Positions 4,912 to 10,012 of a stretch of 64,000 bases of DNA are shown here, one piece after another (within the stretch, counting starts at the first letter, position 1; every line of letters begins with the position of its first letter). The notes under the pieces were generated by a model. That model saw only the letters and a list, made by a program, of their open reading frames with translations. It was not told where the DNA came from and did not search any database. The stretch is from NCBI RefSeq assembly GCF_025398335.1, contig NZ_JAODOO010000006.1, positions 186,001 through 250,000 on the forward strand. The letters are read 5' to 3'. The translations under genes were made by a program, and so were the position numbers. The DNA comes from Clostridium sp. CX1. Lineage in GTDB: Bacteria > Bacillota > Clostridia > Clostridiales > Clostridiaceae.

Positions 4912-5121
4912 ATGGAGCAAAACATAAAACCAGAAATTTTAGATAAACTTACAAAAGTATGCCTTTGTAAAGGAATTTCAAGGGCTACAATAAAAAAAGC
5001 AATTATTAATGGAGCTAAGACTATAGAAGAGGTCAGAAAGGCAACGGGAGCTGGTTCCGGTTCCTGTGGCGGCAAACGATGTACTCCTAAAATAGAACAA
5101 CTATTAGAAGAATTGAAATAG
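4912..5121 (+). CDS. BFD-like [2Fe-2S]-binding protein
   Basis: A 69-residue protein with an N-terminal VCLCKGIS motif and a C-terminal GSCGGKRC motif, giving four cysteines in a C-x-C ... C-x4-C arrangement. This resembles the BFD/NifU-type [2Fe-2S] domain (bacterioferritin-associated ferredoxin), here as a free-standing clostridial version with wider spacing of the second pair than the usual C-x2-C. Such proteins carry electrons or help mobilise iron, but the partner is unknown. It is preceded by GGAGTGAT and followed by a strong terminator, so it is probably monocistronic. Confidence 0.8.
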   Translation: MEQNIKPEILDKLTKVCLCKGISRATIKKAIINGAKTIEEVRKATGAGSGSCGGKRCTPKIEQLLEELK

Positions 5122-8262: not shown

Positions 8263-8976
8263 ATGAAATCAAAAAAAATAATATCAGCAGTAGTAACTGC
8301 CAGCCTTTTAACGTTACCAACTACAACAGCATTAGGTGCAGGAGTAGAGATAGCAGCATCTCAGAATACTGTAGTAAGTGCATCTGTAGAAGAGGTACAA
8401 CAATCTAATTTCAAAAGCTTCAAAGGAACTGTAAAAAGTATGACAGAAACTGAAAAAGGAAATAAGGTTATTGTAGTTGAGGATAGTCAAGGAGGAGAAA
8501 GCCATTTTATTATTAATGAAAAAACCTATTTTATAAATGATACTAAAATAGAAGAAGGAGTGACTATAACAGGATACTACGATGCTACAAGACCAATGAT
8601 AATGATTTATCCTCCCCAATATGTAATTGATGTAGCATTGGTTGGAGATATGAAAGAAACTGTAAAAGTAGACTTATTTGATAATAATCTAGTTAGCGTG
8701 GACAATCAGTTAAAAATAAAGGTTGATAAAGATACAGAAATCATATCTCAGGATGGCACAAAATATGGCGGACAACTTGAAAATAAAAATCTAGTAGTTA
8801 TATATGATATTGCCACTAAGAGCATACCCGCTCAAACAAAGCCAATAAAGGTAATAGTATTAGATAAGGAAGGTAATACTCCTGAGAATGATGTAAAAGA
8901 AGGCAGCAATATTAAAAGCAATGAAGTAATCAAACTTATACATCAAGTGTTAAAATCACTTACAGTAAATAAGTAA
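8263..8976 (+). CDS. Secreted protein of unknown function
   Basis: A 237-residue protein with a clear Sec signal peptide (KSKKIISAVVTASLL, likely cleaved near ALGAG, residues 24-26). Two successive beta-rich stretches follow: about 50-110 (FKGTVKSMTETEKGNKVIVVED) and about 115-200, each pairing a regulatory-looking strand set with a charged turn. There are no cysteines and no enzyme motif. Similar secreted clostridial proteins of unknown role exist; I do not recognise the family. It has a strong ribosome site (AGGAGG) and stands alone between the kinase and the structured element downstream. Confidence 0.75.
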   Translation: MKSKKIISAVVTASLLTLPTTTALGAGVEIAASQNTVVSASVEEVQQSNFKSFKGTVKSMTETEKGNKVIVVEDSQGGESHFIINEKTYFINDTKIEEGVTITGYYDATRPMIMIYPPQYVIDVALVGDMKETVKVDLFDNNLVSVDNQLKIKVDKDTEIISQDGTKYGGQLENKNLVVIYDIATKSIPAQTKPIKVIVLDKEGNTPENDVKEGSNIKSNEVIKLIHQVLKSLTVNK

Positions 8977-9028
8977 TAATATCCCTATCTGCCACACAGG
9001 CTATATTATTCTAGGCTTTCTTTTTTGT
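8972..9028 (+). terminator. Terminator-like hairpin after the secreted protein gene
   Basis: AATAATAT just after the stop pairs with ATATTATT around 9002-9010, with an inner CTGCC/GGC pairing. A T-rich run (TTTCTTTTTT) begins about ten bases later. Confidence 0.5.
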
Positions 9029-9037
9029 TTCAATATA

Positions 9038-9087
9038 AAAATCTTCTTATGTTATAGGGCGACAAGCCCTTGCTCTATAAGATTTTT
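9038..9087 (+). ncRNA. Structured segment upstream of the giant hairpin (candidate RNA element)
   Basis: An AGGGC-GACAA-GCCCT hairpin at 9056-9070 sits inside an outer imperfect stem, ATCTT/TATAG on the left with CTATAAGAT on the right, ending in GATTTTTAAT. It could be a terminator. Because a second hairpin (9166-9184) and the long inverted repeat from 9190 follow, it may be the first part of one structured RNA. No coding sequence overlaps it. Confidence 0.35.
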
Positions 9088-9165
9088 AATAGAATTGTAG
9101 GAAGACTTTTTACTAAACAAACAATTAATGTAACCTAATAATATTACTTACACTTTTGTTTATTA

Positions 9166-9188
9166 GCTATGCTGTCGCATAGCTTTTA
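9166..9188 (+). terminator. Compact hairpin followed by T residues
   Basis: A short 7-bp hairpin GCTATGC-TGTC-GCATAGC is followed by TTTTATG. It is either a small terminator or the 5' hairpin of the large inverted repeat that begins directly after it. Confidence 0.4.
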
Positions 9189-9189
9189 T

Positions 9190-9478
9190 GTGTGATGACG
9201 GATATAATAAAACTTTTAACTGCACTAAAAACAGGTGTGTAGGTAGAGGTGTACTACGTACAAAGCTTCGAATAAGGGTTAGAAGGTCTTATGCTGGCGA
9301 TTTCGAAAATGTTAACTCAAACTCAGCTTTCGCAGAAAGCATTGAGTTTGAGTTCATTTTCAAAGTTGAGCCAGCATTAGACCTTCTTCCTGAAATGAGG
9401 GCTTTCAAGCAGTATGCCTCTATCAAACATACCGGTGTTCAGTGCTCTCAGACTTTTATGTCGCATCATACTTAATGT
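9190..9478. repeat. Long imperfect inverted repeat (giant hairpin, about 290 nt)
   Basis: Two arms of about 140 nt face each other around a centre at 9332-9334. The core pairs 9326-9331 with 9335-9340 and 9314-9325 with 9343-9354 (12 bp perfect). Moving outward, 9306-9311 pairs with 9355-9360, 9281-9298 with 9370-9387 (17 of 18), and further imperfect pairing runs to about 9190/9478. Several arm differences are G/A or T/C changes that stay pairable as G-U in a plus-strand RNA. An open frame across it (9188-9475) follows from the repeat and shows no protein-like features. It could be a structured RNA, a very long bidirectional terminator, or two inverted copies of an unknown repeat. Confidence 0.75.
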
Positions 9479-9487
9479 GTATTATAA

Positions 9488-10012
9488 TTATCTTTTCCAT
9501 AGCTTATACAAGTCTGGTCTTTCTTCCCTTAAGATTTGATAAAACTTTTTAGATACCTTTAACTTTCTAAGTTGTTTAAGCATAAGTCTAGGATATTTTT
9601 CTTGCCATGTTTTGTGAGATGCAGGGTCAATAACTTTTACAGATTCATCTTTCTGTACATATATATGTGCTCCCCTTATATCTAACCTTTTAAAACCTAA
9701 TCTCCTAAACTCTTCAATAAGATTAATTAGATTTATAGCTAAAGTTTTGCTTAATCCGTTTTTTCTTATATAGCTTGGGAGTATTTCTCCATCTACATAA
9801 TCTCTTATCATAGCCTTTCCATTTCTACTATAAACTTTAGGAAAATATGGACTACCTTTTGCAGCTTTTAATACCTCATACTCAGCTATGCATACTTTTT
9901 CTAACTTACAAATCTTTATAACTCTTCCATCAGGCATTAAATATACCTTGCCATTTTTTCCATGGCCTAAGTATTTATATTTGTCTAATTGGTAAACTTC
10001 CTTATAATTCAT
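9488..10012 (-). CDS. Small protein kinase-like protein
   Basis: A 174-residue protein with reduced kinase-fold motifs: a glycine-rich loop GHGKNGKVYL (residues 16-25), VIKI with the presumed ATP-binding lysine near 33, a catalytic-loop counterpart RLDIRGAHIYV (about 108-118) and VIDP in place of the usual DFG. It is compact like RIO/Bud32-type atypical kinases. The catalytic-loop Asn is replaced by His, so activity is uncertain. It has a good AGGAGG ribosome site and ends just before the giant inverted repeat. The substrate is unknown. Confidence 0.7.
   Translation of the reverse strand: MNYKEVYQLDKYKYLGHGKNGKVYLMPDGRVIKICKLEKVCIAEYEVLKAAKGSPYFPKVYSRNGKAMIRDYVDGEILPSYIRKNGLSKTLAINLINLIEEFRRLGFKRLDIRGAHIYVQKDESVKVIDPASHKTWQEKYPRLMLKQLRKLKVSKKFYQILREERPDLYKLWKR

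Follow-up and report, generated by a model that had tools for sequence, protein, structure and literature searches.

What is the long, imperfect hairpin that lies between two convergent genes in a 64,000-nucleotide stretch of the Clostridium sp. CX1 genome (the whole stretch is hereafter called the window)? The earlier note, made from the letters of the DNA alone, had described a structured element without explanation and had offered three guesses: a large structured non-coding RNA, two inverted copies of a mobile repeat, or an exceptional bidirectional terminator. Each guess proved to be right in part. The feature is probably one copy, with parts deleted, of a modular palindromic repeat of the MITE or BOX type that is non-autonomous and has spread through the order. 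Because paired mutations preserve its fold, it can probably be regarded as a mobile, non-autonomous element in which the long hairpin is important, and not as a gene.

The hairpin in the window

The imperfect hairpin of ∼290 nt was confirmed, with its centre at ∼9334 (9333 had been claimed), and a mechanical inverted-repeat search recovered both of its described stems, the outer one of 18 nt (94%) and the inner one of 12 nt (100%). The arm-to-arm local score was 47, compared with 10.4 ± 1.8 (maximum 20) in 500 dinucleotide shuffles. RNA folding of positions 9020-9490 gave values far below those of the shuffled sequences on the + strand (-159.9 vs. -100.2 ± 5.6 kcal/mol, z about -10.8) and on the - strand (-151.7 vs. 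-88.4 ± 6.2 kcal/mol, z about -10.2), and none of the shuffles folded as well on either strand. An inverted duplication that arose by chance or has decayed, belonging to no family and being under no constraint, would account for imperfect arms and nothing more. It is contradicted by these shuffle tests and by the homologues described below, is already refuted, and retains practically no probability.

The previously given span of 9030-9480 was correctly located and slightly short, as similarity to sister copies begins near 8990 and the right end motif runs to about 9474. Both hairpins reported upstream of the long one exist, and both are terminator-like on the + strand. The stem of the first (module C) reads GGACTGGTAAGTCC or near it in the copies L065, L066 and L070, with the pairing retained. 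At the base of the long hairpin (B), GTGTGATG (9190-9197) pairs with CATCATAC (9464-9471). The features of this copy are collected in Table 1. The downstream gene had a kinase-like Pfam match only, which was sub-threshold (E 0.1).

Table 1. Elements of the window copy and its two neighboring genes.
Feature	Position	Strand	Basis or remark
Upstream neighbor gene, 237 aa, hypothetical	8263..8976	+	stop 14 nt before the element; no Pfam family
Remnant of the hairpin A 3' arm (ctgccacacaggctata...), left boundary of the window copy	8990..9017	+	alignment with full-length L061, L065, L068, L069, L071
Upstream hairpin, module C (loop stem GGGCGACAAGCCC), terminator-like at 9052-9080	9038..9087	+	fold, copy alignment, terminator scan
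Hairpin module D, AGCTATGC-TGTC-GCATAGCT followed by TTTAT, terminator-like	9165..9184	+	fold, copy alignment, terminator scan
Long hairpin B, conserved unit	9190..9475	+	fold, 12 own-genome copies, covariation
Fold core kept across genera (CUUAU ... AUUAGA, flanked by variable stems)	9275..9394	+	models R1 and R2, genome searches
18-bp stem, 5' arm	9281..9298	+	inverted-repeat search
12-bp stem, 5' arm	9314..9325	+	inverted-repeat search
12-bp stem, 3' arm	9343..9354	+	inverted-repeat search
18-bp stem, 3' arm	9370..9387	+	inverted-repeat search
Right end motif, reverse complement of TAAGTATnATGCGACAyAAAAGT	9452..9474	+	copy alignments, motif scans
Downstream convergent gene, 174 aa, hypothetical	9488..10012	-	stop 13 nt after the element

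The earlier view that no gene here is convincing was right. A 95-aa ORF (9188-9475) is open but carries no coding signature among the copies: variable columns numbered 45, 32 and 41 at codon positions 1, 2 and 3, with no excess at the third position, and a protein-coding reading was rejected. Hairpin copies of Clostridium magnum, read from their sequences, contain stops in this frame. Pfam returned a DAD match to the ORF (E 0.015) that was below the cut-off, and no ORF family was found inside the element. The same frame is open over much of several other copies, and it would likely be annotated as a spurious small protein. A covariance search against Rfam gave no match above the gathering score, only weak matches to miRNA hairpins far below the cut-offs, which ruled out a known RNA family. 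A plasmid or phage origin was also rejected; positions 9020-9490 had no match in two collections, the viral contigs having been scanned with one short pattern only.

A modular repeat family and its relatives

The Clostridium sp. CX1 genome contains 12 full hairpins of type B, which share 85-99% identity, and five of type A, which are diverged inverted sisters of B (65% mean identity). More than 20 partial matches are dispersed in the same genome, and many copies are deleted or reduced to solo ends. The elements range in size from ∼60 to 900 bp, are modular, and have the end motif TAAGTATnATGnGACAC in common. Alignment of 12 extended copies gave the module order left end motif, A, C, linker, D, B, right end motif. 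In full and mini copies the end motif is oppositely oriented at the two ends, forming imperfect terminal inverted repeats. The combination of lost modules differs between copies; the one in the window consists of the last part of the A 3' arm together with C, D and B, the rest of A having been lost. Its right end motif is common to the left ends of full copies and to solo mini-palindromes. The smallest members are palindromes of ∼80-90 bp made of two back-to-back end motifs, and shrunken hairpins also occur. In genome G004, four palindromes of ∼37 bp, TAAGnATAATGCGAAGC...GCTTCGCATTATGCTTA (G004:C1:3037057-3037093, 154157-154193, 3425264-3425300 and 3429080-3429116), likewise correspond to two end motifs back to back and resemble terminators or REP-like units.

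A separate repeat of 134 bp (CGATGACTACC..., with CCAGGGACGTAGCC on its other strand) was seen at L070:1666-1799 and just upstream of L082 1465. It had about 20 matches in the same genome as the window, and C. magnum gave dozens of end matches. In two cases it lay inside or abutting a giant-hairpin element, namely inside L070 and beside one C. magnum copy; it is absent from the window.

The homologue search that the earlier note had called for was productive, with relatives found in C. magnum and other genomes of the order. A pattern scan of named genomes located three bare 212-bp hairpins in C. magnum, which end in AACCTG...CAGGTT or near it, have unrelated flanks and are without the end motif. 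A first covariance model, built on the copies of the window's own genome and of C. magnum, detected relatives in nine genomes out of 206 in the taxonomic family. With a second model (22 sequences from nine genomes), the fold was detected in 46 of 225 genomes of the order, covering two families and 16 of 56 genera, several with at least 15 copies. BLAST gave about 45 copies in genome G002, whereas two genomes of the same genus as the window had none at the sensitivity of the second model. As a negative control, a sample of 391 genomes of the class gave no matches outside the family and order. Homologues therefore exist, and they do not align as a coding gene; the earlier note had named the opposite outcomes as refutations.

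A branched-tip subfamily (L170-L195, L169, L183, L172, L179) has a tip made of two small hairpins, whose loops are mostly AGGA (CAGGACG, ACAGGAGGT). This branched tip is absent from the simple-tip subfamily to which the window copy belongs. A role as a CsrA sponge through the AGGA loops was considered and rejected, since the simple-tip copies lack these loops and the idea cannot explain the family.

At one orthologous site the genomes G001 and G004 have flanks that are 94-96% alike and different module sets: G001 carries a short hairpin copy, and G004 a stretch of about 620 bp that belongs to this family and whose end motifs are the same but differently arranged. The comparison of these two sequences shows apparent turnover of the family. 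In G002 the corresponding site (L265:2250-2400) is occupied by unrelated sequence, and a clean empty state was not seen at this one site. The G002 sequence is an inverted-repeat element of another kind, AAGTTTTTTATAAGGGGCT...AAGCCCCTTATAAAACTT, to which G229 (L207) and G055 (L049) have weaker matches, and it adjoins a small ferredoxin-like ORF resembling the window ORF at 4912-5121.

The guess of two inverted copies of a mobile repeat was thus sound with respect to the mobile type, to which dispersal, amplification in particular lineages, the loss of modules and one site with different contents in different species all point; the 290-nt hairpin itself, however, is one unit, and the inverted arrangement is that between hairpins A and B in the fuller copies. 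In G004 the end motif was counted 116 times, compared with 11 times for a reversed-pattern control. Against the MITE/BOX reading, no consistent target-site duplication was recognized by eye at the ends of 16 elements, whose boundaries are uncertain by a few bases, and the one orthologous site offered no clean empty state. In the window's own genome and G004, no end-motif pair at a spacing of 1-3 kb that would indicate an autonomous element, and no transposase flanked by end motifs, were found among the matches listed. A MITE does not require an autonomous copy in its own genome.

Covariation and strand preference

The compensatory-change test revealed strong covariation of pairs. When hairpins A, B and those of C. 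magnum were aligned, double compensatory changes were seen in 35 of the 71 pairs, and the covariation score was 0.373, compared with 0.176 ± 0.009 for shuffled alignments and at most 0.10 for slid partners. In the nine-genome set, double changes affected 23 of 32 pairs (score 0.541 vs. 0.200 ± 0.015), amounting to 126 double-change cells vs. 41.6 ± 5.0 after shuffling. Unpaired features were also kept: a U.U mismatch within CUUAU/AUUAG and, in hairpins of the A, B and C. magnum types, a bulge of 2 nt next to the tip. Template switching between the arms of a palindrome can yield paired changes without selection, which weighs against reading the covariation as constraint on a MITE/BOX-like repeat. 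The kept mismatches and loops speak against template switching alone, because a mismatch or bulge of this kind would be lost if one arm were repaired from the other, and such repair is therefore not the whole cause of the paired changes. Among 12 near-identical copies in G001 (L239-L250), the most variable positions form a helix of 2-3 bp adjoining the branched tip, which is mostly paired (TTC/GAA, GGC/GCC, GGC/GTC, TCC/GGA) and in one variant not fully so (ACC/GGG). This short helix resembles a small barcode.

The claim that the differences between the arms are wobble-compatible on the plus strand held, with 77 G.U cells vs. 23 A.C cells in the union of pairs of 20 related hairpins. RNA in the sense of the window + strand was the more stable in 20/20 of the first hairpins, by about 8-29 kcal/mol, and alifold gave these 20 a value of -77.4 in that sense vs. 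-44.3 for the other strand. In a wider set the same sense won in 60 of 65 copies and, by mean, in 12 of 12 groups, and isolated mismatches favored G.U over A.C by 71 to 32; as the orientation of this set came from the model's own motif, its strand result is supportive and not independent. Together, the compensatory changes and the strand preference favor RNA or one DNA strand, and suggest that the folded + strand, either as RNA or as a single DNA strand during mobilization, is what selection sees.

The guess of a large structured non-coding RNA is borne out to the extent of these compensatory changes and the consistent strand preference, and falls short in that no conserved promoter was seen: the region contained two promoter-like sites vs. 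2.0 expected, so that a stand-alone non-coding RNA has no support from promoters. A dispersed family of structured RNAs that serve the cell by binding protein or by regulation, and that are transcribed as the + strand, would fit the conserved internal-loop and bulge sequences across genera, the covariation, the strand preference and the presence of hairpins C and D beside B. The erratic copy number and presence, including the two congeneric genomes with no copies, the free loss of modules and the lack of an Rfam family make this explanation unlikely.

A more specific version of the MITE/BOX reading, which does not exclude it, is mobilization by a single-strand DNA transposase or a reverse transcriptase with the long one-strand hairpin as substrate, in the manner of REP, IS200 or retrons. 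The strand asymmetry of the fold, the excess of G.U over A.C mismatches and the lack of a recognizable target-site duplication agree with such a route. It is nevertheless doubtful: none of the copies was found to be linked to such an enzyme (the Pfam check, which gave no reverse transcriptase, covered the two genes flanking the window copy), the ends are inverted repeats, unlike those of IS200/IS605, and the hairpins are about ten times as long as those of REP or IS200. It is quite unlikely that the strand-specific giant-hairpin nucleic acid is itself mobile as a bacterial SINE-like entity that is copied through its fold, as RNA or as one DNA strand, and inserts beside stop codons, the freely varying yet paired helix distinguishing its copies. 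The MITE/BOX-like repeat remains our preferred reading, even though a strand-specific, covarying structure exceeds the needs of most MITEs.

Gene context and comparison with known repeats

Among the 62 copies for which both neighbors could be scored, 31 lay between convergent, 28 between tandem and 3 between divergent genes; the neighbors were mechanical ORFs, and the comparison is with a naive expectation of one quarter convergent and not with a genome-wide baseline. The tandem pairs split 18 to 10 by orientation, which is not decisive. The downstream neighbor was antisense in 51 of 65 copies, commonly with its stop codon directly at the base of the hairpin and in some cases within the end motif. 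Integron attC sites, considered because the hairpins adjoin stop codons, were set aside because the copies are singly dispersed.

The + strand of the window copy had three terminator-like sites vs. 0.3 expected, and the - strand had none. A GC-containing stem followed by a T tract, as in an intrinsic terminator, was found in C and D on the + strand and not in the long hairpin as a whole. The position between convergent genes and the terminator-like hairpins on the + strand make a putative terminator role for the upstream gene plausible. The guess of a bidirectional terminator fits the convergent setting, shared with about half of the relatives, and the terminator-like hairpins of the + strand, and has no such site on the - strand to draw on. 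As an explanation of the whole element, a bidirectional terminator or insulator between convergent genes, whether domesticated from the repeat or independent of it, could draw on the stop codons at the element edges as well as on these counts. It is very unlikely, as the size of the hairpin and its conserved loops far exceed what termination needs, nearly as many copies are between tandem genes, and enrichment between convergent genes is also usual for parasitic repeats such as BOX, RUP, SPRITE and IS (PMC3049150). The conserved giant-hairpin repeat, on our model, probably also serves as a 3'-end spacer or terminator.

Under the MITE/BOX reading, copies may have spread in trans by means of a host enzyme or the enzyme of a now-lost element, which would recognize the folded single strand or its ends. 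Most surviving copies would be those at the 3' ends of genes, between convergent pairs, where, we propose, promoters are spared. Once settled, the hairpins could act as a spacer or terminator and could give read-through transcripts a strong structure at the 3' end.

A covariation-supported element family in about a fifth of the order genomes searched would account for many repeats between genes and for some of the spurious small ORFs annotated in clostridia. It provides an unusually long hairpin, tested by evolution, for studying how mobile repeats are constrained at the level of RNA or of single strands, and loci that are orthologous yet differ in their module sets are ready sites at which to ask whether such repeats terminate transcription. 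The family is apparently undescribed so far, as no earlier description of such a clostridial repeat was found in the literature searched, outside subscription papers and supplements.

REP and REPIN elements with their RAYT also have inverted hairpins, a strand-specific fold and a location at gene 3' ends, but REP hairpins measure 20-40 nt. Correia, ERIC, YPAL, RPE and bcr1 are, like the element described here, non-autonomous palindromic repeats, and are able to act at the RNA level (PMC2229807, PMC2267715). The clostridial stem-loop families Clop-1 and Clot-1 to -3 are 31-93 nt long (PMC2229807, PMC2267715), and the giant hairpin is set apart from them by its far greater length. In S. pneumoniae, RUP (about 107 bp) and SPRITE (an 18-bp stem plus T tract, terminator-like; PMC3049150) are similarly MITE-like, structured and near gene 3' ends, whereas the covarying hairpin of the clostridial element is far longer. 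BOX elements of S. pneumoniae are modular, dispersed stem-loop repeats of variable size with terminal inverted repeats; they are over-represented between convergent genes, sometimes contain accidental ORFs, are lineage-restricted and are probably parasitic (PMC3049150). The clostridial family shares the modularity, variable size, dispersal, stem-loops, terminal inverted repeats, convergent-gene excess, accidental ORF and lineage restriction. It differs from BOX in its distribution, it apparently lacks boxA, boxB and boxC modules, it has a single hairpin of 210-300 nt with conserved loops, it occurs in 16 genera as opposed to a few streptococci, it combines diverged inverted A and B hairpins within one element, and no target duplication was recognized. 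The logic is that of BOX-like repeats; what appears to be new is an exceptionally long, covarying and strand-biased hairpin over much of the order.
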